Shown in pieces: positions 26,501 through 53,069 of a stretch of 64,000 bases of DNA. The notes beneath the pieces are model-generated. The model was not told where the DNA came from, searched no databases, and saw only the letters and a program-made list of their open reading frames with translations. Location: NCBI GenBank assembly GCA_949358305.1, contig OX442322.1:1426001-1490000 (forward strand), read 5' to 3'. This DNA is from Strigamia acuminata (taxonomy: Eukaryota > Arthropoda > Chilopoda > Geophilomorpha > Linotaeniidae). Both the position numbers and the translations under genes were made by a program. The number at the start of each line of letters is the position of its first letter. The first letter of the stretch is position 1.

Positions 26501-26565
26501 GAATCTTCTTGGATGTTATCAAATGGATAGACATATGTGAGCAAATAACCAATAAAAAATATAGA

Positions 26566-26579: not shown

Positions 26580-27917
26580 ATGTACATACCATCAGTGACT
26601 GATTTTCGCGTACCTTTACTTTCACTCTCACCATTCTGTAATGATCAAGATTGTTTGTTGTCACATAAACTAATCAGTTTTGACAAAAAAAATTTCGGGA
26701 AATATTATAACAATACAGGCTATCCTACAAATTTATTTCTTCGTATCTGCAACAACTGTCTTTTGGTTAAATACGGCCTTTATGAAGCTTATCATTCAGA
26801 AAACGTGAGGAGTTTAAACTGCATGTCAAAAAAAACTCAAACAGACGACGAAAATGGCCCCAAAGAAGGTCCGTTCCTTAAGGCGTATAAACCCATTCCA
26901 GGATTACTAGATGATGACCAAATAGTATTCAAGAAAGATACTATAATAATTCCCTCTGGTGTACTGCTAATCGATTTGCTAATGTGCGATCGTGAAAATT
27001 TATTCAACATCGATTCAAAAATACCCATTGTTAAAATTAGCGGCAAACCTTATTCGATTAATCCTTACATATTTGGTTACTTTCACCACATTCACGATAT
27101 TCAAACGTCTCCTTCTACAAATACGCAGTTAGATATAAGCAAGATTAAAAACTTTGAAGACATGTTGTATCAGAGTTCTGATAACAAAGACAATACGAGA
27201 TGTTTCGCAGGGATTTATGAGCAAGAGGCAATTATGATGAGCAATTTGATCCATCCATTAGCTGCAACATCCACGTATGTCAACAAAGGAAAAAATTTCC
27301 ATTTAAACGTGGATAAAACATTGACGATGGAATTGATCCCGGCTGTATTTTTAAATGCTGCTAATGAAACTCTCATTAAAGAAAAGCCTGAATTAGCGAC
27401 GCAAGAAATCCATAATGGTTTGACATTATCTGTAACAGATCCATTACCCGGTGAAGCGATATTGACTTCTATCAAACTTAAAGGCCTAAACAATCTGCTT
27501 CATTTGGCTGGATTATCTATGAGGCAGTTGATTGTAAATAGAAAGAAGGGACTACTAAATTTCTTTGACAGTACACGAGACAGAATGTACTCAGCTTTGG
27601 CTGTACATACATTGTCGTTCTGTGTCCCCAGTGTAATAGAAGATTCGAATAATGTAGTTTTTCGTACTTTATTACCTAATGTGACATTTGTTGAAGGTGT
27701 TGGATTAGTCTCAACTATCGATATATGCAAGAATGAATTGTTAATAGCAGACACGAAAGTCTCGCTCAATGATTTCATCGGATTGAAAATGAATACTTAC
27801 GAATCGTCTTTGAAATATAACAAGCGAACGATGTCCGCGGATTCATTGCCGCTAACTTACAAATACGAAGGACGAAATCCTGAAAAGGATAAAATGTGTT
27901 TATATGCAAACTTTTAA
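26580..27917 (+). CDS. Putative VP39-like major capsid protein of an endogenous virus, copy 1 (445 aa), intact
   Basis: A complete ATG-to-TAA frame. Near residues 54-66 is R-I-C-N-N-C-L-L-V-K-Y-G-L, near 120 an I-I-P-S-G stretch followed by L-L-I-D-L-L. The C-terminus has V-E-G-V-G-L-V-S and ends shortly after a K-Y-E-G motif. The order of an N-terminal Cys-containing region, the G-L-V-x-S block and the K-Y/F-E-G block near the end recalls VP39, the nucleocapsid shell protein of baculoviruses and relatives. This is a weak, motif-level match. No signal peptide or membrane helix is seen. A diverged paralogue starts 245 bp downstream in the same orientation. The late-type TAAG motifs at the start codon agree with a virion protein. 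Other viral structural families remain possible. Confidence 0.45.
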   Translation: MYIPSVTDFRVPLLSLSPFCNDQDCLLSHKLISFDKKNFGKYYNNTGYPTNLFLRICNNCLLVKYGLYEAYHSENVRSLNCMSKKTQTDDENGPKEGPFLKAYKPIPGLLDDDQIVFKKDTIIIPSGVLLIDLLMCDRENLFNIDSKIPIVKISGKPYSINPYIFGYFHHIHDIQTSPSTNTQLDISKIKNFEDMLYQSSDNKDNTRCFAGIYEQEAIMMSNLIHPLAATSTYVNKGKNFHLNVDKTLTMELIPAVFLNAANETLIKEKPELATQEIHNGLTLSVTDPLPGEAILTSIKLKGLNNLLHLAGLSMRQLIVNRKKGLLNFFDSTRDRMYSALAVHTLSFCVPSVIEDSNNVVFRTLLPNVTFVEGVGLVSTIDICKNELLIADTKVSLNDFIGLKMNTYESSLKYNKRTMSADSLPLTYKYEGRNPEKDKMCLYANF

Positions 27918-28161
27918 AGTATTCTTGGAAGTATAATACACATGCCGCAATAATTGCGGTCTGAGCTTCATCTTCTATAATTAGAATTATTTGTGACAAT
28001 TACGATTATGTTTAGTGACGGTGTGACTGTTAGGTGCGCAATAAGCGGATTAGCTTAGCAGACATCCAAATAAAATTTTTGGGAATATATACACGACATG
28101 CTATCCAAATAGTTTGATACGTTATAAATAATAAAATTTGTTTTTATTTGTTTTAAAAAAA

Positions 28162-28698
28162 ATGACAACAAATACAGCCTCTTCGGTAGCCTCGATAAAT
28201 AATTTTTTATTATCGGATTTTGCAAAATCTCTTATATGTATAAAACAAAAATGTGTATTAAGCCATAGATTAGCAGAGTCTGACGCAAGAAATTTTGGTC
28301 AGCAGTACACAGAAATAGAGAAAAATACTCATATTTATCCTCGAATTTGTTCTAATTGTCTCATTTCAAAATATGGATTATATGAATCAATGCATAAGGA
28401 AACAGTAACTTACATGTCCTGTATAAATACTCGAACACAAGGGCTAGATATTAATGATAGAATAGAGGGCCCATATTTGAGAGCCTTCAAATCAGTGAAA
28501 AATATTATACCAGAGTCCGAGGTAGTTTTTAACAAACACACTGTTATTCTTCCATCGGGACAACTTTTAATCGATTTGTTAATGTCAAATCCTGAAATTT
28601 TGTTTAACAAAAACACTGACATTCCTAAAATAAAGGTTGTAATTACCGGTAGAGAATCAGTACCCCGAGTAGCTTTAGCTGAATTAAACCCTTACATA
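28162..28698 (+). pseudogene. Putative VP39-like gene, copy 2, 5' part (split by element 2)
   Basis: The first 179 codons of a paralogue of the 26580-27917 protein. Shared features are L-S-H-R/K-L, I-C-S/N-N-C-L, K-Y-G-L-Y-E, G-P-x-L-x-A, L-P-S-G and L-L-I-D-L-L-M. The frame is open from ATG 28162 to the retrotransposon boundary at 28698 (the apparent extension to 28731 is LTR sequence). The remainder is at 43075-43929. A TATA-like GTTATAAATA lies about 35 nt upstream. It is interrupted by a 14.4-kb insertion and, in the distal part, by a TAG, so it is non-functional. Confidence 0.8.
28695..28698. repeat. Target-site duplication CATA, left side of element 2
   Basis: CATA precedes the left LTR and recurs at 43071-43074. 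The reading frame of the capsid-like gene continues in phase on both sides once one copy is ignored. Confidence 0.8.
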
Positions 28699-30444
28699 TG
28701 TGACGATTCTACTTTTGGGCTAATTTATTAGTCCTTTTGAGATAGATAATTCGGTTTATACAAGACGTTGCTAAGTTTAGCAACAACCTAACCGAGATAA
28801 GCTACGGAAGCCTTTACAAACATGAATACGTGATCGAATAGAAATAACTTACAGTTTTAGTGTGACATAACATATTTATTACTAAATATTAACAACAAAA
28901 GATGGGTTCTTGACGCGTGTAAACGGGCGGCATCAACTGGTTGAGGATCCGGGCGAAGCCAGAGGGATACGGCTGACTTGCGGCATCGTCACAAATATCG
29001 CTACGGAGACGTATTTGGTCCGCAGCTCGAGTATCTAATAATGCGAAGAGTCCTTCGCATAAGTAGGAATATTCAGCAGAATATTCCATGTTCCAAATGA
29101 ATAAAAGTAAAGTAATTGGTGGAATACAACAAATGAATTGTTGTATAAATATTAATTGGGCGGGGACCGTCACGACAATTGAGAGAACGTCGCGGGAGTT
29201 GTTGAGACTCCATCCGCCAGCATGCCTTACGACGACAAGATCTCGTGATCAGGCGCCGAGTATTTAATTGTGTGCTTTAACTCGCTATCGGTGGTACCAA
29301 CCACCAGGTAAACATTTCTATGGACTTACCGGGTTTAAAAGATATTGCCAATACAGGATTACCAATGCCCGAGTAATTTGTTTAACACGATATATTTTAT
29401 ATATCGTTCACGGGTTACTAACCCGGAGGGTACAATGGGGCGGGGACCGTCACGACAATCGAGAGAACCATCGCGGGAGGATTTGACTCCTCCATCCGCC
29501 AGCATGCCTTACGATGACGGGATCCATTGATCGAGCACCGGGTAAAATATTATTTGGCCACTGCCGTTGGATTACCATTATCCAGGTAGTTATTTATCGC
29601 AACATCTTGAAGATATTACTCACGGGCTACCAACCCGGCGTGTTACCTGTGCATTAGGCCTTTACCGACTTTTAACGAGCGGAAGGACCAATCGTAGAAA
29701 GACGGGAACCTGCGTGGGCTGTTTACAACAACCATCCTGCAGCGGACTGAGGCCAATTAGCTGAGGGACCTACTTTCATTTAGCAAGGTCGTACTGTATA
29801 CGACCGTTATATTAAGCCACCGTACGAAATCCTACTGTCCCGTAGAACAGCTGGCTAACGTTACGGGGCCATTTCATGCGAATGCATGTCTATTACCGGA
29901 GTTAGCCTTCCCGAAATAGCCCTACAACAGCAATAACAAAATAGTAATGAATACTAACTGTGGAGAGCTGAGGTGGCCTGATGTGTCGATAGAGAATAAT
30001 GAAATCAAACGATAACAATTCAACTACAGACAATATACGTGTTCAGTTATCAAGCCAGAGGGAGAGTGGGGGAGAAACTGATGCTTATATAGTTCTGTAG
30101 AACTACTAGATTGGCGACAGCCAATCAGCGTACGAATCAACGGATTCGTGGGTCACTAGTCCGAACCTAATATATGACTATGTCCAGATGGGCCCAGTTG
30201 GGGTCCGAAAGGGTCCGATTGGTTCCCTTCGACAGGTAAGTAATGTAGATATTGATTCGATAGAATCAACATTGTCAAGTAAATAATACTTAATTTATAT
30301 CGAATAAAATAGTCTTATTTTATTCACCGTGTCTAAATAATTATTTATCACACTTTTTAGTTTTATCGAGTTTGAATTACGCGCGTTTGGTAAACAGCGC
30401 CATCTATTGTGAACATTGATAAATACGGATTTGTAATCATCACA
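28699..30444 (-). repeat. Element 2 3' LTR
   Basis: 1,746 bp, TG...CA on the minus strand. It carries the CTCF-like core at 30397-30410, the TATA box, the duplicated hairpin modules and an open ORF of about 94 codons (28889-29173) related to the 110-codon LTR ORF of element 1. Confidence 0.92.
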
Positions 30445-30455
30445 CATCCCCCGGT
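30445..30455 (-). other. Polypurine tract of element 2
   Basis: ACCGGGGGATG on the minus strand directly before the 3' LTR, as in element 1. Confidence 0.5.
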
Positions 30456-31196
30456 GACAAGCATAGAGTTTACTAACTCTTCAATTATCATTCTTAATGT
30501 ATAAGAAATGTTCACCTAATTCTATCGAATTAATCCACTGGGTAAGTATTTTTATTAAACTTAATCACGTTATTTCTTTCAGAAACTTCGTTACCCGATT
30601 AGACTAATCGGCTTCCCTGTACAACGCAACTCCCGGTTGCTAAGCGACGGAAATGAACTCGTCCGAACATGGATGCATGTTCGAGAAAACTAATTTCGAT
30701 AGAAATTTTTTTTTTTTTCTATCAATTAAACTTCTTCACAGCTTATTAATTATCCAGATGATTAAATAAAATAAATTTATGCAAAATTTTATTTATCGGA
30801 AAATCTAAACTACTAATTCTTTATTACGAATGTCATAAAAAATTAACGAATTTCAACTTGAAATTCTTTAACGCTTCGATCAAAGCAAAATAAACACAAA
30901 GTTTCCACAAATAATTATGAAATTTGCAAATAAATCAAACAAACATATATTAATATGATTAGTTTAAATAAACATCCAAATTGAATTCGAAAACAAAACA
31001 AATTAAATTGAATCCAATTTTAGATCAACTATATTCTTATGAATATTTAAATAATTAGTTCAAGATCTTGGGACCAAACAAACACAACACTCATGAGAAT
31101 ATTTCGTAATTGCAAAAAACACAACAAACACTTGGAACATTTTTAGTCATAAAAATCTCCACTCGGAAAAATAACGAATGTTAATTTTGTCCTTTT
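30456..31196 (-). other. Element 2 3' untranslated region
   Basis: AT-rich, matches 16149-16884 of element 1. No gene seen. Confidence 0.5.
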
Positions 31197-32714
31197 TCAT
31201 TCCTTCTTTTCGACGTCAGTCGAATCTTTCTCTTCCTTCTTCTCGACTTCAGCAGAAGTCAGAAAATCAGATTCTTCAGTCGCCTCTGTCGAGACGGCGG
31301 AAAACACAGCTTCCTCCGGAGCTTCAATCTCTTCCGGACTCGGAGGCGGAAACGGCATGTCGTCGAGAAGCTCAGCCACGAAATCAACGACGGAAAGCAG
31401 CTCTTCGGCGTCCTCAAACTGAGCGTCGTCCGAAGTCTCGGACTTAGACACTGGAGGGGCGCTGGACACGTCGGTTACGGCCGCTGGAGGATTCTCCACA
31501 GGTTTAGACGATGCTTCTACCGCCTGTCGAAGCTTACGGGCTCGCCCTCGTGCCAAGATGTTGGTTCGCTGAACCTTGGCAATTTCCTTGGCTCGGTCGA
31601 GCGTGAGGCAGCCTCGACCACGCGACATCGTTCTCGGTCGAACGAATTCTTCCTGCACCTCGCTTCCGACGCTTTCAGTGGCCTGGACAGTTTCAGTAGA
31701 AACTTCAGAGTCCTCGGACGGCGGTGGCGATTGTCGAAGGAGTTCGACTCTTACACTGGCGTTGGCTTCAGTGCGGGTCCAGGTGAGGAAACGTGGGTCG
31801 ATGTAAACCGCTTCGCCACGACTATTTAGGAAAAGTCGGCACTTTGGGCAGTGAGCCCAACATCGCTTCTCGTTAGGCTTAATGCCTTTCACTACGTGGG
31901 GCTGAACCTCTTTCCTCCACGGCTCCAAACGCGGTCGCGTTTTCCTTCCACGACAATTTGGACAACGCATCAAAGAAGACCCTGCGGATGCACCGCAGCA
32001 CCACCCGCAGCCGACGCAGAACGGGCAGATTGTCTCTGTTGCCTGGTCCGTTACGATGTTATCGTGCGGAATTCCTGCGGCCATGTCACGCTCGCACTGT
32101 TCTTTGCGTAGGCGGGCCTTCTCGTCCTTCTTTCTTGCCTTATTGGCTGCTCGGTACTCGCGGTTGCGAGAAACAGGCTCTGAAAAACGCAAAGCGCCCG
32201 GCGGCGGCTCGTTCCATCCGTATTCGGATGCCGAAGATTCAGCACCGGCAGGAAGACGCACATCAGTCGTTGATTGTCCTGCCACAGTCGGTGCAGTCGC
32301 ATTCGACGTGTTGGCGACGGTAGGCGCCACGCTTGCAGTTGGCGGCCAAAATTCTGGTGAATGCGGGGCCAATGGGACGTTGATAACGTTCGCGGGCGGA
32401 TGTACCACCTGGGCCAACGGGGCCAATTGCGCCGACTCATAAACGGTTAGCTGTGCAGATGTGGATGGGGCCTGCATCATCGCATTTAAGTCGAGCGGGA
32501 GTCCGTCCGGATGGACGCTCAGCCAATTTAGCGTTGCTAACTGCAGTGGCGTCAGGGCATACATGGAGGCTGGTGCCGTTGGTATCGGTTGGGCCCTCAA
32601 ATATGCACGTTCGGCCGAACGGCGTTGCTTGTCACTAGACGAGGTGGACGAGCTGGAACTTTCATGACGGTGACGTCGATGACTCCGTTTTGAACGATGT
32701 TTACTACCTCCCAT
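31197..32714 (-). CDS. ORF3 of element 2: Cys-rich accessory protein in the env position (505 aa)
   Basis: The ATG at 32714 directly follows a consensus 3' splice site (GCGTCTGCAG), so a spliced subgenomic mRNA is likely. Residues about 1-40 are Arg/His/Ser-rich. A short L-x2-W-x4-H-P-D-x-L-P motif lies near residues 60-75. The core (about 205-305) has E-R-D-M-A-A-G-I-P-H-D-N, C-P-F-C-V-G-C-G-W, C-P-N-C-R-G, W...V-V-K-G-I, C-P-K-C and Y-I-D-P-R-F. The C-terminal 100 residues are acidic. There is no signal peptide, transmembrane helix or fusion-peptide-like segment, so it is not a conventional envelope protein. The C-x2-C-x-G-x-G spacing recalls DnaJ-type zinc modules. The core is conserved in element 3 although the flanks are not. 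The sequence is GC-richer than the rest of the element. Function unknown; nucleic-acid or protein binding is a guess. Confidence 0.72.
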   Translation of the reverse strand: MGGSKHRSKRSHRRHRHESSSSSTSSSDKQRRSAERAYLRAQPIPTAPASMYALTPLQLATLNWLSVHPDGLPLDLNAMMQAPSTSAQLTVYESAQLAPLAQVVHPPANVINVPLAPHSPEFWPPTASVAPTVANTSNATAPTVAGQSTTDVRLPAGAESSASEYGWNEPPPGALRFSEPVSRNREYRAANKARKKDEKARLRKEQCERDMAAGIPHDNIVTDQATETICPFCVGCGWCCGASAGSSLMRCPNCRGRKTRPRLEPWRKEVQPHVVKGIKPNEKRCWAHCPKCRLFLNSRGEAVYIDPRFLTWTRTEANASVRVELLRQSPPPSEDSEVSTETVQATESVGSEVQEEFVRPRTMSRGRGCLTLDRAKEIAKVQRTNILARGRARKLRQAVEASSKPVENPPAAVTDVSSAPPVSKSETSDDAQFEDAEELLSVVDFVAELLDDMPFPPPSPEEIEAPEEAVFSAVSTEATEESDFLTSAEVEKKEEKDSTDVEKKE

Positions 32715-32735
32715 CTGCAGACGCAAATAAATTAT
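32715..32735 (-). promoter_or_regulatory. 3' splice acceptor of element 2 ORF3
   Basis: On the minus strand an AT/pyrimidine-rich run ends in TGCGTCTGCAG immediately before the ORF3 ATG. Element 3 has an equivalent acceptor 4 nt before its ORF3 ATG, and element 1 lost the region. Confidence 0.55.
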
Positions 32736-33759
32736 TTTATTAAAAATAATTCCACTCTAAATAGTCATTCCTTGAGTACAAAGAATTAAAACGTATTGTT
32801 CGCAACGAAAATACACAACTCGAGTTATTTATAACCCTTAACACGTGACACTAATGAGTCACATTCCCCTTGTGTTTATGACACGAGAATGGACTCGTCG
32901 ACAGAGATTTTCATCGAAAATCGCAACTTGTTGATTTTTCAAAAGAAAAATTCTTTTCGTTTCTATAAACTATTTAATCCAACTTTTCGAGTATCAAAAA
33001 TAACTTTAGTATTAATTAATTAACACTTAGTCTAATAAATCTCTCACATCGAAAATTCATCGCCAAATAATTTATACAAGCCTCGACCGCGACTTGATTT
33101 AAATAATTAGTGCCTACATACTTAAATCTTAATAATTCATTATTAATATTTAACCCAACTATTCGACTGAATAGCTAAACTTCCAGAGTGATTTAATGCC
33201 GATTCACGCTTATAATACACGTGAATTTTTATCGGGACGCCGATATTTCAATTGTTGCGAACAATTTTCTAATTCTTTGGTCAAAGAATATATTTGAAAA
33301 CTACTTACTGTTGGAAGTGAAGCTTTCCTGTTTTGGAGTCGGCTAACTGAATTAGCGCTGAGTTTTTTCGAAGTCGAAAAAAGTGAAGAGGAGACGAAGT
33401 TTGACTTGTATCCACGTGTTTAACGAAGTGTGTTTGGTGCAATGAACCCTGGGAATTTTATTCCCTATTAATTGTCGGGTTCGAGGTTTAATCACACCTC
33501 GTAAATCTCGTACCCTCGTGAAGAGGCGAGATTATCACTTTTCAAAGTAATTTCTCCGTATTTTAGTTAAAATACATATAAATATGGCCATCGAATAAAA
33601 TATTCTATCAAATATTTCAACTTATCGCAACAAATTCATATTTTAATATAAATTTCGATACTTTTCGTATCAAGGTGTCCCCCGGTGTTGAGATTTTCAA
33701 TCACTACACCTGTTAGACATGTAAAATAATTACTGTCTCCAAGTTTTGGATAAAACTTG
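32736..33759 (-). other. Element 2 spacer between pol and ORF3
   Basis: About 1 kb without coding content, containing the stretch (32736-32924) that is deleted in element 1 and a GTAAGT donor-like site near 33305. In env-type expression this would be removed or bypassed by splicing. Confidence 0.5.
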
Positions 33760-36700
33760 TCAATTCCAACAAAACTTTGAGGCTTTGCCGTGTTGTTGGT
33801 ACGGTTTCTTAAATACTGCGGAAATATTTCGCACGAAATTTTCATCCGAATATTTAGGATTCGGCCTTCGCTCTCGTCGAGGACGAAGGCTAGTTCGCGG
33901 AACTAACGGTTGGGGTTTGCGGGGTTTTCGAGGCGGTTTCTTTGGAACTTCGCCTCTTTTTAACGCCGCTTTCTTTTCTATAGCAGTTAATCGTTGTCTA
34001 TGTCTATGTTTAGACTTAATGGGCGCAGATTTGTCAATTTGCACCGAAGTTGAGTCAGATAATTCCATTGGAATTTCTGAAGAAGTTTCAGGAATTAATT
34101 CCATTTCTTCAGCATCCGGAAGTTGGTTACTTTCATCCATCCATTTAGGATTTTCTTGAGGCGAGTAAGAGGCGGACTTTTGTCCTACTTTCCAAGTCTC
34201 AATCGGGTATGAGGGCGTATAGGGGTACAACGCTTTAATGTTCACTGATTTTTCGATCGAACCATCAGATAATTTGCGTAATTTATACGCTCTGCCTGGA
34301 AGTACTTTAGTAATTTCCCACGGTCCATCTCTCTTCTCAGCGAAACCAGCAGAAATATTTTTATCTGCGCAAGAGAGGATGTGAGTCTGTTTCCAGACTA
34401 AATCTCCGACTTCGAACTCCGTAATTACGAACTTTTGTTCGTGTATTTTTCTATGTCGTTCAAAATTCAATTGAATTCTGCGATGCATCTCTTGATGCGA
34501 TCTACGTAATATATCCAATAGTACTCTGACATATTTTTCTGGATTTTCTTTGTCAAATGGATTGGCATGTTTAATAATCTTTGGGTCGAAAGGTAATGTT
34601 ACGATTCGTCCCGTGTTCAGCAGCATCGGGCTTGAGCCGGTTGCTGCCGAAACATTATTTCGCATTGCGAATGCAAATTCGTCTAAATAACGCGGCCATT
34701 GCGTGTGCACGTCTGTGTACAGGGCCAGCATCGTCTTTATATCTCTATTGGCTCGCTCTGTCGGGTTCGCCTGGGCATGATACGTGCTCGTATGAGACGG
34801 GCGAATGTTGTACATTTTGCAATACTCATTGTAAATATCGGAAACAAATTGTTTTCCGTTATCGCTCACAATCTTTTTGGGGTGTCCCCATCTGTTTGTA
34901 ACAGATCTTAATTCTTGAACGCAGTTAGCGCTTGTGGCTTTGGTCAAAGCCTTAATTTCAATGAACTTGGTACAATTGTCAATAATGACAAAGATATACT
35001 GGTTTTGGGACCTTCCCGCAGGTTTTGGGCCCATCAAGTCCATGCTAATACATTCCCAAGGATTGGTCATGTTGTGGGGTGTGTAAGGAGCTGCGTGCCT
35101 TTTCTGTTGAATAGGCTTGTACTGAGCACAGTGCGTGCAGCTTTTGACGTAGTTCCTGACACTTCTACTCATACCAGGCCAGAAATATATTAAACGCGTT
35201 TTCTCAAGCGTCTTACTCATCCCAGCGTGACCGCTTAGGGGGTGGCCATGACAAGCGAAGAGTACTCGTTTTACGAGTGCACTGGGTACAACGGCTTTAA
35301 AGCCATTTCCCGAATCGTTTAATTCCTCTTCGAACAAAGGGTTAAAATAGATGATCATTTGATCACCATCAACTTCTTTTTTGTCTAAACAATAGTTTTT
35401 GACTTTGTTTTTCCATTCTTTTATTTCAGATTGTGGTATCCCAACAACCTTGTCATTCAATAAATATTCTCGAATGCGTTTGCATTCAGTATCTAGTAAC
35501 TGAGCATCTATTATTTCTCTCTTTGTAGGAGGGACTTCCTTAAGTATGTCTGTCAACGCACTGTACAAGGTTTCTTGTACTTCCTCCCCCTCCCTTTCTT
35601 CAGAACATTCTTTAGAATTTTCTGAAAAATAGGAACGCATACTAGCCAAAAATTCTCGTTTCTCAGGGGCACGATTTAATGAAACAGAAGGATTTCCGTC
35701 CCATTCAGGCCAGTATTGTTTAATTTCGACAGGTTCCACATGATCTCGAAGAGGAATGTCTTCCTCTGTTAGTGGAGCTCTAGAAAGTGCGTCTGCAACT
35801 TGATTAGCAGCACCTTTTCGAAAAACAATTTTAAAATTTCCACATTGGATTCTTAAGGCCCATCGGCCAAATTTCCCAGATGGTTCAGGCGTTCGCATCA
35901 ACCATTTCAGTGCTTCTGCATCTGACTCTAAAGTGAACGTACCATATTCGAGATATGGTTTAAATCGATTGATAGCCCACACGACTGCGAGACATTCGAG
36001 TTCCGGCGTTGTATAACGCTTCTCCGCTCCACGTAAAACTCTGCTTGCATAAGCTACAGGTCTGGGTACAGAAATGTTTTTCTGTTTCCTTTTGTCGAAT
36101 ATATCGACATCTTGGCAAAGGACAGCTCCTAAGCCTTCATGAGAAGCGTCAGTCATAACGACAAATGGCAGAGTCATGTCCGGTTTGTGTAGACAATTGT
36201 CGCCACAAAGTAGCTCTTTAATTTTATTAAACGCTTCTGTCTGCTCATCTCCCCATTCAAATGGAGTTTTCTCATTCATCATACGTGTGTATGGTGCGGC
36301 AATAGTTCCGTGATTTGGAACAAACTTCCTGAAGAAGTTAGTCATGCCGTGAAAGCGCTGAATGTCTTTAGCACACGTGGGGGTGGGAAATTTCATAATC
36401 GCCGATATTTTATCGGGATCACCAAAGAGACCTTCGGGTTTAATCCAGTGGCCCAAGAATTTTAATTCTGTACGCCCAAAACGAGATTTCGCTTTATTTA
36501 TTGTCATGTTGGCTTGGTTAAGCCTTTCTAGAACATCTCGAACGTGTTTGAGATGATCATCCCAATTATCTGAATATACAATTACGTCATCCAAATAGAC
36601 TAACGCGTAGTCTTGTAAAGCTGAGCCTAAAATGCCTTCCATCAGACGCTGGAAAGTACAAGGCGCATTGCAAAGGCCAAACGGCATTCGCACAAACTGA

Positions 36701-37968: not shown

Positions 37969-40208
37969 GAACTAGTAGCACTTGAATCTGTCGATTCGGG
38001 CTTGATCAAAGTTTTGACCATTTCCGCCAACGAGTTGGTCAGCGAAGTTTGTAACTTAGTTTCAAAAGTATTTAATTTCGCATCAAGTTTAGCATCTAGT
38101 GTTGCGTCCAACACTTCTTGAGTTATCCACCTATTATTAGGCCGTTTAGAGGTTGGATCCACAGTCGGGGAATCCGGAGTACCACGTTTTTGTAACTCTT
38201 CAGAGTTGAAATTTGTACGTGGTTTTGGATTTGTACATTCCCGACGCATATGTCCGGGCTGTTTACAGTTATAGCAAACTAATTGACCACGTCTGGTCTG
38301 ATCTACTACTCCATTTATTAAATAAACGGCTTCGCACTCCTCAGGTAACTCTTCATCACAAATATTAAGTTGTTCTTGTGAATCCAAAGTTAAAGATTTA
38401 GCATTTGTCTTCGGCTGAGGACGAGTGTCAGTTTTCCGAGGTGGAAAAACAACTGGATTGGAATTATTTTCCTTTGCTCCATTAGCTGTACGACTGTACA
38501 AGCTTTTGCTTTTTGTAACCGCGCTATAAATCTCTGTTAGAGGTAAGTCAGCTAGGCCTTGCATATGCAAAAGCAAATCGTTAGCAGGAGTTACACTCCC
38601 GATAAACAGACTTCCAGCCCCTTTCGCGTCGAGGTTGTCTTGTAAAATCCATAATTGGTAATATTTGTGCATAAAGTCGTAAAGACTTTCTGTTTCAAGT
38701 TGTCTCAACTTGGTCAGTTGGTTCGTCCGCTCTTGTCGAGTGGCTACAAACCTCTCTTTGAACGCCTGTTCAAATATATCCCAAAATGTGAAATCTCCTC
38801 TCCTTTCATGGAACCAACCATGCGCTTGCTCGGTTAGATAACCAGCAACGCCTTTGATAAGCATGTCATCGAGTGACATGTTTTGCAAGAAAGCGACATT
38901 TTTTACGATAGTGAGAAAGCGTTCGCTTTCATCTGCCTTTCCAGAGAATACAGGAATATCAGGGGGCTTCAAACTGTTAGTTTGAGGGACAATGGCGGAA
39001 CTTTTTCCAGCCTGCATTAATTTGTGCATGGTCGTGGCAATTGACGCGAGGTCATCAGCCGTCATTCCAAAGCTGCTTGGGGGACGCGAATGGTCATTCA
39101 ACGATCCACCAGTGTTTGATTGACTCGAGTTATTTTGACTTGAGCCACCATTGTTGGGGTTGAAGTTATTCGACCCTCCTTGATTTGGTCTACTGTGGTT
39201 ACCAAAATTCGAATGGTTATTCGAATTACCTTGGTTCCCATAATTCGAATGATTATTAGAATTACCCCGATTGTCAAAATTCGGACGGTTGTTCGAACTT
39301 CCTGGGCCACCAAAATTCGGACGATTGTTCGAATTACTTGGTGTACCGTGATTCAAATAATTATTGGAATCTCCTTGCGTTTCCAGATTAGAAGGATTAT
39401 TTAAATCATTCATATCAATTTGGTTATTCGAGTTCGGAGGAACTGGGTGACCCCTTTGCATGTAAGGTGCTGGACTAGAATTATTTGCAAATCTAGAATT
39501 TGGGTCAAAACGGCGGTTTGGACCTCTTGTCGCACCTGAATTTGGGTTCAAATTTCCAGCGAGATTCGGACAACTATTTGATCCATTTGGAAAACTTGGA
39601 TTAGGGTTGGCCATATTAGGCGGACCCAAATTCGCTCTGTTGAACGTATTCTCAAAGTTCTCTGGATTTGTAAATCCTCTTTGTTGGTTGCGAGCGAAGT
39701 TATTCGCTCGTAATCGTTGTTGGAAAGCACGAGTAAAATCTCCTGGTGTCAAATTCGACTGATCTTGACGAGGAGGTTGTGCATTTTTATTTCTATATCT
39801 AGAAATAGGCGTCGAAAGAGTGGGACTAAAATTATTTATTCTTTGGCTGGCTGGGGAATTAGGATGCTCCGACGTAGCACGACGTGCGTGCACGAAATCT
39901 AATACTTCGGTCAAAGATCTAAATTGGTTTGGGTTCAAACCGTGATCCTGACAAAATAATAGACCGCCTCGGCCTAAATGAGAACCTTCAGGAATGCATT
40001 CCTCTTCTCCAGGCGGAGTGGGTTCACGTGAAATCCTTTTACCACCAGATGGTCCGGCTGTTTCATTTGAAACGCCATTGTGGACCGCGTGGTTTCCCAC
40101 TTCTTCCATTCCAGTAGGAGCAGGTACAAACCCGGATAGATTCATTCCACCGGTCAAACAAGTTCTTTCCTTACCGCGGGTGTTCATGTGATGCTGGTTA
40201 CTAGTCAT
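37959..40208 (-). CDS. gag: Gag of element 2 (749 aa)
   Basis: Open from the ATG at 40208 to TAG. Same layout as element 1 gag: an Asn/Gly-rich middle region, the capsid-like domain and a C-x2-C-x4-H-x4-C zinc knuckle. It is shorter by eight residues net because the short N-rich tandem repeats differ in number: one G-G-P-G-S-S unit fewer, and an extra N-N-H-S unit. Confidence 0.88.
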   Translation of the reverse strand: MTSNQHHMNTRGKERTCLTGGMNLSGFVPAPTGMEEVGNHAVHNGVSNETAGPSGGKRISREPTPPGEEECIPEGSHLGRGGLLFCQDHGLNPNQFRSLTEVLDFVHARRATSEHPNSPASQRINNFSPTLSTPISRYRNKNAQPPRQDQSNLTPGDFTRAFQQRLRANNFARNQQRGFTNPENFENTFNRANLGPPNMANPNPSFPNGSNSCPNLAGNLNPNSGATRGPNRRFDPNSRFANNSSPAPYMQRGHPVPPNSNNQIDMNDLNNPSNLETQGDSNNYLNHGTPSNSNNRPNFGGPGSSNNRPNFDNRGNSNNHSNYGNQGNSNNHSNFGNHSRPNQGGSNNFNPNNGGSSQNNSSQSNTGGSLNDHSRPPSSFGMTADDLASIATTMHKLMQAGKSSAIVPQTNSLKPPDIPVFSGKADESERFLTIVKNVAFLQNMSLDDMLIKGVAGYLTEQAHGWFHERRGDFTFWDIFEQAFKERFVATRQERTNQLTKLRQLETESLYDFMHKYYQLWILQDNLDAKGAGSLFIGSVTPANDLLLHMQGLADLPLTEIYSAVTKSKSLYSRTANGAKENNSNPVVFPPRKTDTRPQPKTNAKSLTLDSQEQLNICDEELPEECEAVYLINGVVDQTRRGQLVCYNCKQPGHMRRECTNPKPRTNFNSEELQKRGTPDSPTVDPTSKRPNNRWITQEVLDATLDAKLDAKLNTFETKLQTSLTNSLAEMVKTLIKPESTDSSATSSKN

Positions 40209-41303
40209 AACTAAACTTAAACTAAGAAAATTTCCTAAGTCTGAGAGATAACGATGAAGCTGCAAACGTTCAGGAGGGTCGCAAACGAAGCAGTGGTCAC
40301 ACTATTCGAAAGAAAGTATGGGTACTTCAATACACCTCTCTGATTGGTCAAGTATCAACGCTAATCTCGCGAGAGTCCAATCTCATCCGAGATTGGTGGA
40401 AATCACTAAGTTCGTGGAACCTTAATCTTGTCAGATTTCAGTGTTATGACGTAGTCACAAACAATATGGATACTTTTCAAAGTATTCTACAACATTATCA
40501 AATTTATTTAATAAAAATGACCATTCTATGAGAATTTTAAAGTATTAAAACCCACAATTTTAATAAAACGCGTCGAATCGTTTGAATCGACGGCTTTTCT
40601 GCACAACCTGGTTGCTAGGCAACACAACAGCGAGAATTTCTTTCGCTAAATTTGAATGGTATTCCATTCTTAAAATTCGATTCCAAGGTCTTGAAATCAT
40701 GATTTTTAACCGACATTTTAATGTAGGTCAAGTCTGTAAAATAAGGTAAACCATTTTGAAATAAAATATAAATTTTAATTCCTTCGAAAATGTCAATTTT
40801 TCCTTTTATTTATTTAGACAAATAAATTTAGGTTTAACTTGAAGTCTCAAGCAAAATTACTTATTTAACACATTCCAAAAATAAAGCGATTGTCAAATTG
40901 ATAGAATTCTTTAAGAATTCCGTCAAAGTCAAACTTTTCAAAATTAGGCCCAACCGCGTGGTTTTGTCATATTGTCGACGACAAAAATGATGCCACCCGG
41001 GCGGGGTCAACTTTAACAAGTTCGGGCAAGATTTTTCCGTTCTCGGGGTTAGGCCCTTAGGCCTGACCACGCGGTAGAAATTATTATTTTGTTAAAACAA
41101 ATAATTTCCACTGCGGAGAAAACAGAATAAAGTGAGTTACACTTATTAACTTGGCAAGATGTTCTAAAATAAAAATATATTAAACACATATAAATTTCAG
41201 ACGAAATTTATTTTTTACACACAAAAAATCACCATAAACGTTACACTACTCGGATTCACCATAGACATACAAAACTTCAAATTTTTTTTAAAATTTGGCA
41301 GCC
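40209..41303 (-). other. Element 2 untranslated leader
   Basis: About 1.1 kb corresponding to 6612-7712 of element 1, including the same 69-codon upstream ORF (40861-41070), which has no recognisable content. Confidence 0.5.
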
Positions 41304-41322
41304 TATCTCGGTAGAACCTCCA
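41304..41322 (-). other. Primer binding site of element 2, tRNA-Gln type
   Basis: TGGAGGTTCTACCGAGAT on the minus strand, two bases from the LTR, with the same single deviation as element 1. Confidence 0.65.
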
Positions 41323-41324
41323 CT

Positions 41325-43070
41325 TGTGACGATTCTACTTTTGGGCTAATTTATTAGTCCTTTTGAGATAGATAATTCGGTTTATACAAGACGTTGCTAA
41401 GTTTAGCAACAACCTAACCGAGATAAGCTACGGAAGCCTTTACAAACATGAATACGTGATCGAATAGAAATAACTTACAGTTTTAGTGTGACATAACATA
41501 TTTATTACTAAATATTAACAACAAAAGATGGGTTCTTGACGCGTGTAAACGGGCGGCATCAACTGGTTGAGGATCCGGGCGAAGCCAGAGGGATACGGCT
41601 GACTTGCGGCATCGTCACAAATATCGCTACGGAGACGTATTTGGTCCGCAGCTCGAGTATCTAATAATGCAAAGAGTCCTTCGCATAAGTAGGAATATTC
41701 AGCTGAATATTCCATGTTCCAAATGAATAAAAGTAAAGTAATTAGTGGAATACAACAAATGAATTGTTGTATAAATATTAATTGGGCGGGGACCGTCACG
41801 ACAATTGAGAGAACGTCGCGGGAGTTGTTGAGACTCCATCCGCCAGCATGCCTTACGACGACAAGATCTCGTGATCAGGCGCCGAGTATTTAATTGTGTG
41901 CTTTAACTCGCTATCGGTGGTACCAACCACCGGGTAAACATTTCTATGGACTTACCGGGTTTAAAAGATATTGCCAATACAGGATTACCAATGCCCGAGT
42001 AATTTGTTTAACACGATATATTTTATATATCGTTCACGGGTTACTAACCCGGAGGGTACAATGGGGCGGGGACCGTCACGACGGTCGAGAGAACCATCGC
42101 GGGAGGATTTGACTCCTCCATCCGCCAGCATGCCTTACGATGACGGGATCCATTGATCGAGCACCGGGTAAAATATTATTTGGCCACTGCCGTTGGATTA
42201 CCATTATCCAGGTAGTTATTTATCGCAACATCTTGAAGATATTACTCACGGGCTACCAACCCGGCGTGTTACCTGTGCATTAGGCCTTTACCGACTTTTA
42301 ACGAGCGGAAGGACCAATCGTAGAAAGACGGGAACCTGCGTGGGCTGTTTACAACAACCATCCTGCAGCGGACTGAGGCCAGTTAGCTGAGGGACCTACT
42401 TTCATTTAGCAAGGTCGTACTGTATACGACCGTTATATTAAGCCACCGTTTGAAATCCTACTGTCTCGTAGAACAGCTGGCTAACGTTACGGGGCCATTT
42501 CATGCGAATGCATGTCTATTACCGGAGTTAGCCTTCCCGAAATAGCCCTACAACAGCAATAACAAAATAGTAATGAATACTAACTGTGGAGAGCTGAGGT
42601 GGCCTGATGTGTCGATAGAGAATAATGAAATCAAACGATAACAATTCAACTACAGACAATATACGTGTTCAGTTATCAAGCCAGAGGGAGAGTGGGGGAG
42701 AAACTGATGCTTATATAGTTCTGTAGAACTACTAGATTGGCGACAGCCAATCAGCGTACGAATCAACGGATTCGTGGGTCACTAGTCCGGACCTAATATA
42801 TGACTATGTCCAGATGGGCCCAGTTGGGGTCCGAAAGGGTCCGATTGGTTCCCTTCGACAGGTAAGTAATGTAGATATTGATTCGATAGAATCAACATTG
42901 TCAAGTAAATAATACTTAATTTATATCGAATAAAATAGTCTTATTTTATTCACCGTGTCTAAATAATTATTGATCACACTTTTTAGTTTTATCGAGTTTG
43001 AATTACGCGCGTTTGGTAAACAGCGTCATCTATTGTGAACATTGATAAATACGGATTTGTAATCATCACA
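41325..43070 (-). repeat. Element 2 5' LTR
   Basis: 1,746 bp, followed on the plus strand by CATA. The CTCF-like core at 43023-43036 carries one substitution here, unlike the other family A LTRs. Confidence 0.92.
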
Positions 43071-43074
43071 CATA
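43071..43074. repeat. Target-site duplication CATA, right side of element 2
   Basis: Matches 28695-28698. Confidence 0.8.
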
Positions 43075-43929
43075 TACTCCTACTTCAAACATTTACATGA
43101 TTTTTTAACTTTACCAGATCGAAAAAACAATACCTCAAAACGTGAATATAAATATTTAGAAGATATCTTACATGTAGAAAAAAACGTGGATAATGCATGC
43201 CTAGATGCTACGTACGAAATAGATGCATTACTAATGAGCAATTTAATTAATCCCATTGCATCTCTATCTCATTATGTTAAGAAAGCAGAGAATATACATC
43301 CGACTGATAGCAAACAATTCATAATTTCAGACAAATTTCCTACAGCAGAAGTTAAACCAACTAAACCCGAATTATTAAATAATGACAAAAGCGATCATGC
43401 AGAAATATCATTTACAACAGACAACACCGCCGTTTCTGTCGGTACCACGAAAATTGATTGTGTAACGCCAGAAAAACTCCAGCATTTAAATTCGTTATTG
43501 CTTTCGTATATAATAGGAATGAGACAGGTTATTGTAAATAGGCAGATGGGATTGTTAGATTATTTTATTGCAAATACTACGTTGTATAACCTACGATCTG
43601 CTAGTGCGCTTCACGTTGCAAGCTTCTGTGTTCCATACAAGATTGTTGATGGTGGTGTTATCCATCGTATGTGCAAAGCAAACGTGGAGTAGGTTGAAGG
43701 TGTGGGATTGGTATCTACTGAAACAATTTGTGCCGATGAGTTGTTAATAATTAATCAATCTGTGGAACTGTCAAACTTTGTCAGATTAAAAATGAGTAAT
43801 TACGAACAGACTATTAAATATTCGGATCCTGACGTAGACGACAGTGCTGTTCGTGGCGATAAATTAAGCTACGATTATGAAGGGAGACAATCTCGGCAGC
43901 CCAAAATGTGTTTATATGCAAAGACATAG
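43075..43929 (+). pseudogene. Putative VP39-like gene, copy 2, 3' part with a premature stop
   Basis: Continues copy 2 from 28698 in phase after the retrotransposon. It aligns with the second half of the 445-aa paralogue: M-S-N-L-I-N-P-I-A, M-R-Q-V-I-V-N-R, F-C-V-P, V-E-G-V-G-L-V-S-T and Y-D-Y-E-G-R near the end. A TAG at 43690-43692 interrupts the frame just before the V-E-G-V-G block; the frame is open again to TAG at 43927-43929. The segment between the conserved blocks is more diverged than the ends. Confidence 0.8.
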
Positions 43930-45013: not shown

Positions 45014-48000
45014 TTAATTGCTGCTAAAGTTTTTAAGAACAATTATCTTTTCAAGACAATCACTTATTTGTAATGTTTCTGAATCAAAAACATCATATCG
45101 TGTAACGTGAAATCGTGTTTGTATATTAGGACCTTTGGTAACAAGACAAAGAATTTCTGATAAGAATTCATTTAATCTCCAATCCGATTCTACGATTATT
45201 CGAAAGCATGGTTTCACTTTGATTTTGTTTAAAAACCATTTTTCCAATACTACTAGTGATTTCCATTCAGACAAGTGATTATTATTTAGATAACAAAATC
45301 CTTGATTTGGTATCAATTTTAAATCTATTTTTTTCGTTAATGAAAGTTTAGAATCTTTGACTGATTTATGAAACACATTGTGCTTGACTGCAAAGTTATA
45401 CCAGTCCTCAAAAAAACTCCTAACATCCGGAACACTTCCTAATACATTATTTCTCTTTGAATCCCAAGTCAAAAAATCGACTTTATTTTGAATCGTAACT
45501 AATCGCGTTGATTTTAATCTATTAGTTGCTTCTTTAAAAGTATTATCTAAATATTTAATATTTAACCCGTAAACAATATTTAAAAGCTTATTGATTTTTC
45601 CAGTGTAAGGTGATACAAAAAGATGTAAATTAATAGTTAATTCAATCGAATCTTTAGATAATTCGTAAAAGGTGCCGACCCAATTACTCTCGATATCCTT
45701 TATGACAGGTACGTAATAAACATGCCCATCTGTATTAGACAAATCAATTCCTCGATCCAATAGATCACGTGCAAATACAATGTGGGGTAAATTACATTTT
45801 TTTGAATAAAGATATAGATTAGGTTTAATTTTTTTCATTTGAATAAATTTCTGAGGATCTTTGGTTAAATCAACAAAATGTTGAATTTTGTGCCTTAACC
45901 ATTCTTTAAATTGATTTACATCGAGCCTTATGTCTATTTTAAAAATAAAATCGACAAGGTCATTAAAGAAATCCGAAATACAGACGGGTATTTTTTTCTG
46001 AAATCCGACTATTTTGTACGATTTGCTGGTTTTCAGCCCAATGTAACATTTTTTTGACAATATTATAAGTTTTTCGAAAATATCCTCCATTTCCAGTTTA
46101 GGAAAATCACTTTTCATCCATTTATGAAATTTGATGACCAGTTCCTGTCCTATGTCCTCATTGATTTTTATGTCTGACAAAGTTATACCATCATGTTTTT
46201 TCTCACACACAAATACAGAATCTGTGTCTCCGTAAATTACAGAAAATTTATTTAATTCGAAGAATTCTTCGCAACGGTTCAGAAATTGTCGTCCGTATGC
46301 TGTAACCGTCGCAGCTACGTTTTGATCGCCAATAAAAGTAGAAGAGCCTGTTAACCCGTACAACGAATTCGCAAGTAATTTCAAAGCTTGTTCCATCACA
46401 GAATAATAAGCAGATTCATTTTTTTTCTTCTTGAAAATTGACCGCTGTTCAATCAACATTTTCTCTATGCTTGCAAGAGGGGTTGCATCTATATTTGAGG
46501 ATTTAGGGGTTAGATTAATATGAGTGTTCATGTCTTTAGCGTGGAAATTTTCATCATAAAAATCTTTTTGGTCCTGGTATTCGTTCTTGCTTATGCAGTA
46601 CAAATAAGATGGGGAAATATTATATTTAATAATCACACTAGGATAAAGCGAAGCGTAATCAAACACCATAACATTATTATAAATTCCACATTTTGGATCG
46701 ATTATGTGAGCACCTTGATACTTGGATTTATTCGCGACTACTGTTTCATTTTCGATTCCTTTTTCCCTTTCAACAAAAGAAATTCCAGTTGTTAAGTTTC
46801 GTTGGTATGAAAATGGTTTTTTTTCTGGATAAAACACTCTATACAGAACGCAATTGATCGATACAATAGAGATGGGTCCAAAAATATTTTGAATGTTACA
46901 AAAAGTTAATGTGCATAACACATTAACTAGATTAAATACATTTAGTTTAAAGAACAAATCCAACGGTAATAAAGAGTCGACTTCCATATAGACACAGAGG
47001 TCATCTAGAAACGATGTTTCACCAGATCCATTATATAAATTAGAATACAATTTGTGAATCTGAAAAACTTGAAACGCCGTTTTCTTCTGCCCTAGAATAG
47101 TTTCTGCAACATCGTCTAATTTGTAAGAAGGGAAACTTTTCCCCTGGTAATATCGCTTAAAGTACGGGAGAAGATCTATATTATCCTGGTGATGTAACAC
47201 AAAGGGCGTTTCCTCGTATTCCGCTTTTGTCAGCCATTCCAATATGTTAACATTTCTTTGTGTACTGAATAATTGCAAATCAATGTGAAGAAACAAACAA
47301 CGTGCTATTAATACGTTGTTATCGAACATGTTGTAATTATATCCTATAATAACATGAAAATTCATTGTGAAATCCAAATAATCGAGTATCATATCCTTTT
47401 CATTGTGGAAAACGTTCACGAAAGAAATTTGACTCAAAGGTGGTACATATTGCACACAAGGAGGAACTAATAACCATATTTTTCTATTTCTAGATTTTGG
47501 TAACTCTTCACCGGTCATACCATTTAGATCAGAAAATATGGTTGAAATTCCAACAATTTTCTCGTGAATATTTAATCCATTTGGAAAACCGCCCTTTCCG
47601 TTAGTGATTGCAACTTCTAGATCAAAAGATAAAATTCTTAAATTTTGTCTGTATTTAAATTCCGAAGACACGAATGTCACATGATCAAACGGGTGCTGGA
47701 TATATATTCCATCGTTTGTACGAGTGTACCTAACTTCGAATAACCCTATACTCGAAAAATCTTTACCACAGCGGCGCAATTGTTGTATAAAATATTGCGA
47801 GTTTACGAGTTGAAATCTATCTGGGTGTAGAGATGCAACATCGTGGATACCAAACACATGTCGATTAGTGTATATGAAATTTGCATACTTGTGCAAGTCT
47901 AAAGAATTGAAATAAACATAATAGCCGTAATTAACGTGTCTCTGCTGCACAAAGTCATGGCAGTCATAGTTGGTATTTGCGCACCACCATTCCTTTTTCG

Positions 48001-48235
48001 GATCCACTTCCATGCCTGTTACATCCATGAATTTAAAAAATTTCAAATTCGGATTTAGAGTTTTCACAAACACCAATAGCCAGTTGCAAGCATTTGTCTC
48101 GAATGACAAGTTAATTACTCTCTTAACTGTAACACCTGTATTTAAAATACCATAAAAAACACCTGGCTGGTGTCTGTCCCACTTGTAAATCCAGATTTTT
48201 TCACGCTGGACATCATAACAACCTGTCTCCGCCAT
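45014..48235 (-). CDS. Family B DNA polymerase of an endogenous large DNA virus (1,073 aa), intact
   Basis: Replicative DNA polymerase with proofreading. Start chosen at ATG 48235 (the frame is open slightly further without an ATG). Exonuclease motifs: F-D-L-E-V near residue 203, Y-N-Y-N-M-F-D (Exo II), Y-M-E-V-D (Exo III). Polymerase motifs: D-Y-A-S-L-Y-P-S near 525 (A), K-L-L-A-N-S-L-Y-G near 618 (B), Y-G-D-T-D-S near 668 (C), then K-K-C-Y. All catalytic residues are present, and no stop or frameshift interrupts the frame. Length fits polymerases of baculo/nudi/filamentous-type viruses and is shorter than cellular catalytic subunits; no C-terminal Cys metal-binding module is visible. No protein-priming (TPR) insertion was noticed, so it is not a Polinton-type enzyme. 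Divergent neighbour: the PIF-2-like gene, with 67 bp between the start codons. Confidence 0.87.
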   Translation of the reverse strand: MAETGCYDVQREKIWIYKWDRHQPGVFYGILNTGVTVKRVINLSFETNACNWLLVFVKTLNPNLKFFKFMDVTGMEVDPKKEWWCANTNYDCHDFVQQRHVNYGYYVYFNSLDLHKYANFIYTNRHVFGIHDVASLHPDRFQLVNSQYFIQQLRRCGKDFSSIGLFEVRYTRTNDGIYIQHPFDHVTFVSSEFKYRQNLRILSFDLEVAITNGKGGFPNGLNIHEKIVGISTIFSDLNGMTGEELPKSRNRKIWLLVPPCVQYVPPLSQISFVNVFHNEKDMILDYLDFTMNFHVIIGYNYNMFDNNVLIARCLFLHIDLQLFSTQRNVNILEWLTKAEYEETPFVLHHQDNIDLLPYFKRYYQGKSFPSYKLDDVAETILGQKKTAFQVFQIHKLYSNLYNGSGETSFLDDLCVYMEVDSLLPLDLFFKLNVFNLVNVLCTLTFCNIQNIFGPISIVSINCVLYRVFYPEKKPFSYQRNLTTGISFVEREKGIENETVVANKSKYQGAHIIDPKCGIYNNVMVFDYASLYPSVIIKYNISPSYLYCISKNEYQDQKDFYDENFHAKDMNTHINLTPKSSNIDATPLASIEKMLIEQRSIFKKKKNESAYYSVMEQALKLLANSLYGLTGSSTFIGDQNVAATVTAYGRQFLNRCEEFFELNKFSVIYGDTDSVFVCEKKHDGITLSDIKINEDIGQELVIKFHKWMKSDFPKLEMEDIFEKLIILSKKCYIGLKTSKSYKIVGFQKKIPVCISDFFNDLVDFIFKIDIRLDVNQFKEWLRHKIQHFVDLTKDPQKFIQMKKIKPNLYLYSKKCNLPHIVFARDLLDRGIDLSNTDGHVYYVPVIKDIESNWVGTFYELSKDSIELTINLHLFVSPYTGKINKLLNIVYGLNIKYLDNTFKEATNRLKSTRLVTIQNKVDFLTWDSKRNNVLGSVPDVRSFFEDWYNFAVKHNVFHKSVKDSKLSLTKKIDLKLIPNQGFCYLNNNHLSEWKSLVVLEKWFLNKIKVKPCFRIIVESDWRLNEFLSEILCLVTKGPNIQTRFHVTRYDVFDSETLQISDCLEKIIVLKNFSSN

Positions 48236-48265
48236 TCTATTTGTCACTTTCCGTTGCAGTAACTA

Positions 48266-48272
48266 TTTTATA
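48266..48272 (-). promoter_or_regulatory. TATA box of the polymerase gene
   Basis: TATAAAA on the minus strand about 31 nt upstream of the ATG at 48235, inside the 67-bp divergent promoter shared with the PIF-2-like gene. Confidence 0.45.
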
Positions 48273-48302
48273 CGAACTTTACTTTTTTTTAAAAAAGGGC
48301 AG

Positions 48303-49319
48303 ATGCATACGAATTATTCAGTGCAATTATTATTATGCGGGTTATTTCTATTAAACATCTTGTATACACTTAACTATTTTTATAATGCTAATGTAATTGT
48401 TAAGAAACACGAATTAAAAAGAAATTCTAAATTTAAATTACCATTTACTTTGCGTAATGAATTATTAGTAACAAACAAAATCAGCGACAATGACAATTTA
48501 ATAGTTAATTCGTGTTCTGATATTCCATTTAAATGTACTGATTCAAATTGCGATTGCGCAAAGATCTGTCAGGATGATAACTATGAATTGATTAAAATCG
48601 AAGACTCTAGTGTCGTGTATAACAATACTTTGTTAAGCAACGGGTATTATTGTATGACAAAACAATACGAAAATAAATGTTTGGCTAACGTATCCGCGGC
48701 TGTATTTGAAGATGACAAGTGGCATTGTTTATGTAAATTTCCCACTATTTTCTCGGGTGAATACTGCTCAGATTTTATTGCCTGTAAGGTTGCTTATCAG
48801 TCGAGTAAGTCTTTATTATGGGATTACAAACTTGACAAGAAGGCAGATTTAAGAGTTAAACACGATTTCTTCGAATATTTACCAAATACTTCAACTTTTC
48901 GGTTTAGATGTAGCTGCGGCGGATTAGACGAAATGGGAAATAAAATGATCGAGTTAGATTTTGCCCCATTTGAATGTTTTATTGATCCATGTAAAAGCAA
49001 TATACCATTCAGTAGTGTGAAGGGTTTCAATCATATGACGAACCAGTGTGATTGCGGCGATTTCAATCTTACCAGACAGAAGAATGTCATTGAAAATGAT
49101 AAGCGCTATCCTTGCACTCCTTGTAATAGCTCAGTGTCTAGTTCAGTGTATGGTAATGTAGTGAATTTTGCGGCTCATTGTTATAATGACCTTTCCAATA
49201 CCATTGATTTCGAATTTGATTTTTATCCGTGTATCAATTTTACCACACATGTCACTAATTGTGGGGTTGCATCTTTAACTTTTTACGATGAGCCTGCTTA
49301 TCCTCCTACAAATGTTTAA
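48303..49319 (+). CDS. pif-2: PIF-2-like per os infectivity factor (338 aa), intact
   Basis: PIF-2 is a component of the oral entry complex in the envelope of baculoviruses, nudiviruses and relatives. The product starts with one hydrophobic anchor (about residues 8-27), then a Cys-rich ectodomain with more than 20 Cys. In order: C-S-D-I-P-F-K-C, C-D-C-A-K-I-C, N-G-Y-Y-C, W-H-C-L-C, R-F-R-C, F-E-C-F-I-D-P-C and Q-C-D-C-G-D. The order of the last blocks is characteristic of PIF-2 rather than PIF-1 or PIF-3. The length is slightly below the usual 350-400 aa. No lesion is seen. Identification is from motif order only. Confidence 0.72.
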   Translation: MHTNYSVQLLLCGLFLLNILYTLNYFYNANVIVKKHELKRNSKFKLPFTLRNELLVTNKISDNDNLIVNSCSDIPFKCTDSNCDCAKICQDDNYELIKIEDSSVVYNNTLLSNGYYCMTKQYENKCLANVSAAVFEDDKWHCLCKFPTIFSGEYCSDFIACKVAYQSSKSLLWDYKLDKKADLRVKHDFFEYLPNTSTFRFRCSCGGLDEMGNKMIELDFAPFECFIDPCKSNIPFSSVKGFNHMTNQCDCGDFNLTRQKNVIENDKRYPCTPCNSSVSSSVYGNVVNFAAHCYNDLSNTIDFEFDFYPCINFTTHVTNCGVASLTFYDEPAYPPTNV

Positions 49320-49850
49320 TCATTGCAGAAGTAATCAGATAATATTACGCGCATTAAGATAGGACCAGTGCTTTTTTAATGAATTTATAATTTTATAATT
49401 TGATTTGTATCTTTAATTAAATTTCATTGTTTGTATTACAAATATTTCCAATCTATTGAACTGCTAATTTCAATTTCCTGTTTATATTACATATGTTTTT
49501 TCAAACTATTGTATTTTTAATTTCCATGTTCACTCACATGTAAAAAAAAAAGTGCATTAATTTACTGCTAGATTAATCCAAGTTAACTCATTTTTTAAAC
49601 TTGCTTTATCAATTTTCACCAAATTTAAACACTTTTTCAAAAGAAATTATTAATCCGGAATATGTTTATTTATTTTTGCAAACCATTAATTGTCATCAAA
49701 TACATCTCTCTGCCTAAAATAAAAAGAAGTTAGTATTTTGGATTTTAATCACAAACTATCTATAATGAAAGTGGATAAAGTTGAGGATTTATATTCTAAT
49801 TTTGGGATAACCAAATCCCACTTCTCTTCTTCGATTTCATATTTACAACT
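49320..49850. other. Non-coding stretch between viral block II and the THAP gene
   Basis: AT-rich. The virus-host junction on this side probably lies here. A 69-codon ORF at 49738-49947 is antisense to the THAP gene end and rejected. Confidence 0.45.
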
Positions 49851-53057: not shown

Positions 53058-53069
53058 TAATTTGTCACA

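Follow-up and report, generated by a model that had tools for sequence, protein, structure and literature searches.

We found that a 64,000-nucleotide stretch of the genome of the centipede Strigamia acuminata (OX442322.1, forward strand, C13:1426001-1490000; hereafter the window) lies in one of four large copies of a virus carrying PIF genes. These copies are part of the chromosomal DNA, have been invaded by retroelements and differ from one another at lower nonsynonymous than synonymous rates. The window is probably the decaying Y copy of a large DNA virus of the Naldaviricetes class that appears to be undescribed, with a germ line entered repeatedly by replicating virus before the decay on the Y. 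Our best reading is a new lineage of this class, endogenised more than once and behaving like the endogenous nimaviruses of crustaceans. The genes pif0, 1, 2 and 3 occur in all Naldaviricetes families, the class being marked by pif genes and the order by lef genes (PMC10271883). Since PIF-0, -1, -2 and -3 were all detected here together with a family B DNA polymerase, we placed the virus in the Naldaviricetes, which supports the proposal of the initial annotation that a large DNA virus of the baculo/nudi/filamentous class is endogenous here.

As presented in Table 1, both the polymerase and the PIF-2 genes of the window are open. The seven motif patterns of the polymerase (ExoI-III, A, B, C and KKxY) were each found once and in order and, together with the Pfam match, confirm the annotated full-length family B enzyme with all its catalytic motifs. 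Four full open genomic copies of this gene were recovered, the others being 97% identical to that of the window, in addition to a fragment on contig C1 (five matches out of six candidates). The closest relatives found were metagenome proteins with 52% and 58% identity. The PIF-2-like gene, for which a profile search had been suggested, was upheld by that search with a score well over the cut-off. It is open in 4/4 genomic copies, the others again 97% identical, and its closest relatives found were also metagenome proteins (47% and 57% identity); a search of solved structures (PDB) gave no useful match, and in NCBIfam the protein had just a weak hit to SprT that fell far short of the cut-off. 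Genome-wide family searches located PIF-0 (N and C parts) at four places, with a frameshift in the Y copy, and PIF-1 and PIF-3 at three places each; neither PIF-1 nor PIF-3 had a match on the Y in these searches. The chromosome 2 copy of PIF-1 is cut short beside DNA that looked GC-rich and retroelement-like on inspection. All four PIF proteins exceeded the Pfam cut-offs in viral copies, and the searches for PIF-0, -1 and -3 gave matches in 0 of 14 control genomes. All counts of genomic places for viral genes are lower bounds. Scans of viral contigs returned no relatives except two remote polymerase matches (33% over 73 residues).

The genome searched comprised 237,517,015 bp in 157 contigs, and the published assembly qcStrAcum1.1 comprises 237,534,282 bp in 158 scaffolds, built from 98-fold HiFi reads with Hi-C scaffolding, with chromosome 2 of 37.79 Mb, chromosome 4 of 16.99 Mb and a Y of 10.34 Mb (PMC10556566). 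On size agreement alone, contigs C3 (37,788,348 bp), C5 (16,989,096 bp) and C13 (10,344,242 bp) are most likely chromosome 2, chromosome 4 and the Y, respectively. The four large copies lie on the Y, on chromosome 2 and, twice, on chromosome 4 (C5a and C5b). On the Y, homology to the other copies extends from ~1,278,028 to ~1,623,271, a Ty3-interrupted span of ~345 kb of which both ends, the PIF-0 locus and the window were sampled. The limits of the annotated segment 26580..49319 did not hold, viral homology being wider on this contig. Viral stretches of the window have a GC content of ~27-37% and its retroelements mostly of 38-50%. On chromosome 4, where 456-486 kb separate the two copies, these are identical at the polymerase, PIF-2, the primase-helicase, a LEF-4-like open reading frame (ORF) and three members of the 26580 gene family described below. 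They differ at PIF-0, the SF1 helicase, a 520-aa ORF and ORF1616, with one change each in X405 and ORF302. The pair therefore looks like a mosaic, and is probably a duplication with later exchange. Outside the large copies, the fragment on C1 (C1:43257697-43257876, L017) covers 60 polymerase residues at 53% identity with two stops and may stem from an earlier insertion by a related virus; a region at C4:6581351-6583261 has 66% identity to the viral ankyrin region.

We then compared substitution rates between copies, using dN/dS as uncorrected rate ratios, in which sites and genes are non-independent and paralogues may convert one another. Ratios were low for the polymerase (0.17) and PIF-2 (0.13-0.14) between the Y and both C3 and C5. 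Pooled ratios were 0.27 for the Y against C3 (10 genes; synonymous 7.4%; Fisher 7e-42), 0.32 for C3 against C5a (14 genes; synonymous 1.25%; Fisher 4e-9) and 0.32 for C5a against C5b (14 genes, some partial; synonymous 0.37%; Fisher 0.0017). Between copies, synonymous changes occur at 3-4 times the rate of nonsynonymous ones, so a large part of the divergence arose under selection. Of the 10 genes tested on the Y, four stay open across the compared stretch (polymerase, PIF-2, the 26580 gene and one paralogue); the other six, PIF-0 and the primase-helicase among them, are disrupted by a stop, frameshift, insertion or truncation. Copies on chromosomes 2 and 4 are nearer to each other, and their compared genes are open except for the shortened PIF-1. 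The suggestion of a recent or maintained integration fits the mostly open copies of chromosomes 2 and 4, but not the decaying Y copy.

Other replication genes accompany these. The primase-helicase at the window edge, of a D5 type outside the core-gene table of PMC10271883, corresponds to a 953-aa frame on C3 that matches PF19263 above cut-off (2.3e-7) and TIGR01613 below its own cut-off (9e-21). The DxD and sxH patterns are present; a Walker A pattern search was empty, and GASANNGKTT appears P-loop-like by eye. The gene was found at four genomic places, with one premature stop in the Y copy. The viral copies also encode a thymidylate kinase (6.9e-32) and an SF1/RecD-like helicase (Pfam/NCBIfam). 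The LEF-4-like ORF scored 19.0 bits, just below its cut-off of 20.2, and a genome search for LEF-8 was empty at E 0.001, as it was in all the control genomes. Phage-integrase-type PF00589 matches below cut-off (0.011 and 0.001) were given by two ORFs, one of 520 aa and one of 1102 aa. These recombinase-like ORFs have zinc-finger-like starts by eye, and one of them also matched zf-DBF below cut-off. Neither the primase-helicase nor the one recombinase-like ORF searched against the PDB had a useful match.

The gene at 26580-27917 had been annotated as capsid-like. We abandoned this reading, as its only Pfam matches were far below cut-off and no PDB match was found; it belongs to a family present at 53 genomic places at least, and its relatives found were three metagenome proteins (best 54%). 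Some members form clusters with no polymerase or PIF-2 matches nearby (C18:92056-130266, C145:193406-217184 and C5:15992713-15996206), and C18 holds two sets with equal scores, 34.6 kb apart.

Spliced host-type genes had been proposed in the flanks. These were rejected, the regions consisting of Ty3 retroelements and viral ORFs, among them the ankyrin gene in virus-collinear DNA. The long terminal repeats (LTRs) of E1 and E2 are 99.26% identical, with 13 differences each, and 1088 bp of LTR are identical between both LTR copies of E3. E2 has inserted within a paralogue of the 26580 gene that is uninterrupted on C3 and C5, which represent the empty site; the empty site of E1 on C3 was deduced from spacing. 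The third ORFs after pol in E1 (15018-16148) and E2 (31197-32726) had no significant Pfam match and are possibly envelope-like. A dispersed repeat at window ~21243-21889 recurs at 70-78% identity on several other chromosomes. At a matching viral position of two other copies (C3:2028001-2033337 and C5:11095001-11101462), we observed a copia-like stretch and a ~187-bp tandem repeat, which perhaps resembles viral hr repeats.

Table 1. Features of the window (positions within the window; aa, amino acids; RT, reverse transcriptase)
Feature	Position	Strand	Evidence
D5/P4-type primase-helicase, N-terminal 664 aa, continues beyond window edge	2..1993	-	C3 frame, profile matches
Viral ORF, 174 aa, function not assigned	2065..2589	-	Open in C3 copy too (L019:3567-4097); weak DUF5091 match below cut-off
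ORF, 238 aa, probably viral	3289..4005	+	No Pfam match; window 1-3500 aligns to C3 at 97.9%, covering ORF start only
Ty3-type LTR retroelement E1	4845..18642	+	Gag, RT, RNase H, integrase; target duplication candidate AATA (4 bp)
Viral stretch	18643..26570		80-97% to C3, C5a and C5b, collinear but gapped
Ankyrin-repeat gene in viral DNA	22920..24308	-	PF12796 4.1e-23; within stretch collinear with C3 and C5
Further ankyrin-like ORF	24301..24624		ORF table
Viral multigene family member (26580 gene), function not assigned	26580..27917	+	Multi-copy
Paralogue of 26580 gene, first part, cut by E2	28138..28698	+	C3 and C5 copies uninterrupted
Ty3-type LTR retroelement E2	28699..43070	-	RT, integrase, protease, gag; 4-bp target duplication CATA
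Split paralogue of 26580 gene, second part, one in-frame stop	43071..43929	+	
Viral family B DNA polymerase, 1077 aa, open	45014..48247	-	PF00136 5.5e-44
PIF-2 gene, open	48303..49319	+	PF04631 6.6e-19, 68.5 bits (cut-off 25)
Viral stretch downstream of PIF-2	49320..50621		Aligns to C3 and C5a at 88-96%, some gaps unaligned
Ty3-type LTR retroelement E3, to or beyond window end	51423..64000	-	RT, RNase H, integrase, gag

Under the reading that we favour, the virus, equipped with PIF entry genes, a polymerase of its own and a D5-type primase-helicase, would have entered the germ line more than once, with insertions on the Y, on chromosome 2 and on chromosome 4 and with the tyrosine-recombinase-like genes as candidate integrases. 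Much of the divergence between copies would have arisen while purifying selection acted on the genes, for which virus replication is the simplest setting. Ty3 insertions, frameshifts and stops would then have cost the Y copy gene function. Several observations weigh against this. The host-virus junctions were reached at none of the copies, so it is by inference that we propose separate insertion and a recombinase route. The recombinase matches are sub-threshold, and an HxxR search matched N-terminal parts only and did not find the catalytic residues. The raw counts of changes between the Y and C3 are similar (229 nonsynonymous and 214 synonymous), only the per-site rates being different. Individual ratios reach 1.1-1.6 for ORF1616 (C3 against C5), ~1 for X405 (Y against C3) and ~0.6 for two members of the 26580 family (C3 against C5). 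Finally, the dispersed repeat occupies the same viral place in the Y and C5 copies, and a decayed copia-like stretch, recognized by eye, the same place in C3 and C5; either could mean one insertion, or these repeats could have been carried by the virus.

The sharing of these two repeats, the low dN/dS and the identity of the chromosome 4 pair across much of the compared parts would also suit one ancient insertion that segmental duplication spread between chromosomes and that the host maintained in working order, a domestication as in parasitoid wasps. We consider this unlikely given the state of the Y, where most tested genes, PIF-0 and the primase-helicase included, are broken and PIF-1 and PIF-3 are without a match; moreover, joint constraint on the polymerase and the oral-entry genes suits virus replication better than host use. 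A giant element that is still mobile, inherited for the most part vertically and mobilised by a tyrosine recombinase of its own, a model proposed for the endogenous nimaviruses, seems more doubtful still. The two recombinase-like ORFs, the 0-4% synonymous differences among C3, C5a and C5b with their open replication genes, and the extra 26580-family clusters on C18, C145 and at C5:15.99 Mb would agree with such an element. However, no viral ends, target duplications or preferred target were found in copies whose ends were not reached, the 48 records examined held no TTAGG arrays of three or more, and the HxxR search did not locate the recombinase catalytic residues.

Near-identical copies can mislead an assembler, and exogenous virus contigs might have been misjoined to host chromosomes. 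We regard this as very improbable: two ~14-kb Ty3 elements lie inside the viral DNA, one of them (E2) with an empty site elsewhere, genes broken on the Y are open in other copies, and the assembly combines deep HiFi coverage with Hi-C (PMC10556566). The initial annotation had itself named a cellular polymerase beside a non-PIF protein as the outcome that would overturn it. The structures matched by the polymerase do include pol alpha, beside herpesvirus polymerases, and archaeal and bacterial NCBIfam polymerase models match far below cut-offs. With PIF-0, -1, -2 and -3 over their Pfam cut-offs, and metagenome proteins as the only close polymerase relatives found, this explanation is hardly credible.

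Among known systems, the endogenous nimaviruses (majani-, pemoni- and clopovirus) are the closest functional parallel to the centipede virus. They are proposed to act as giant transposable elements, with large PIF-bearing genomes in crustacean chromosomes and zinc-binding tyrosine recombinases with a C2H2 part, for which the centipede virus offers sub-threshold candidates (PMC10871703). The centipede virus differs from them in its host, in the lack of telomeric arrays in the loci examined, in its 1077-aa polymerase and in its D5-type primase-helicase (PMC10871703). The ant labial gland disease viruses (LGDV) and related endogenous viral elements of ants are also Naldaviricetes and, as here, combine numerous endogenous copies and low dN/dS with pif genes and a polymerase, besides an integrase, for which the centipede virus has candidates; in contrast, they come from insects, LGDV has 52% GC against ~27-37% here, and lef4/8/9 are reported where we obtained only the sub-threshold LEF-4-like match (PMC12548425). 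Genes derived from Leptopilina boulardi filamentous virus (LbFV) in Leptopilina and Platygaster likewise place naldavirus genes in chromosomes, but as a subset, whereas the centipede copies are long and collinear with entry and replication genes (PMC10259472). These LbFV-derived genes include DNApol (PMC10259472), so the polymerase retention that the annotation found notable against the viruses of parasitoid wasps is not unique. A wasp or ant host was rejected on contig sizes, which point to a centipede. The ichnovirus replication regions (IVSPERs), an endogenous arthropod virus of unknown ancestry, contain a DNA polymerase, a D5 primase-helicase and a further helicase, a likeness drawn from description only; unlike the centipede virus, they come with no mention of pif genes in the available text (PMC7602663). 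One may speculate that a PIF virus with a D5/P4-type primase-helicase bridges the baculovirus-like class and the ichnovirus gene set, which resembles that of nucleocytoplasmic large DNA viruses, the centipede copies being relatives of the ichnovirus ancestor and self-inserting giant elements, with one on a Y chromosome; we give this idea little credence at present.

Other DNA viruses are reported from myriapods in PMC6950620, whose nudiviruses are from crabs; our literature search of Creative Commons-licensed PubMed Central papers found no naldavirus in a myriapod. A naldavirus in a centipede would therefore widen the host range of the class. With four copies in one genome, selection during virus replication can be separated from decay in the host. 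Furthermore, with a D5-type replication gene present beside PIF genes, sequence comparison becomes a way to test where ichnoviruses, whose origin is unknown, came from.

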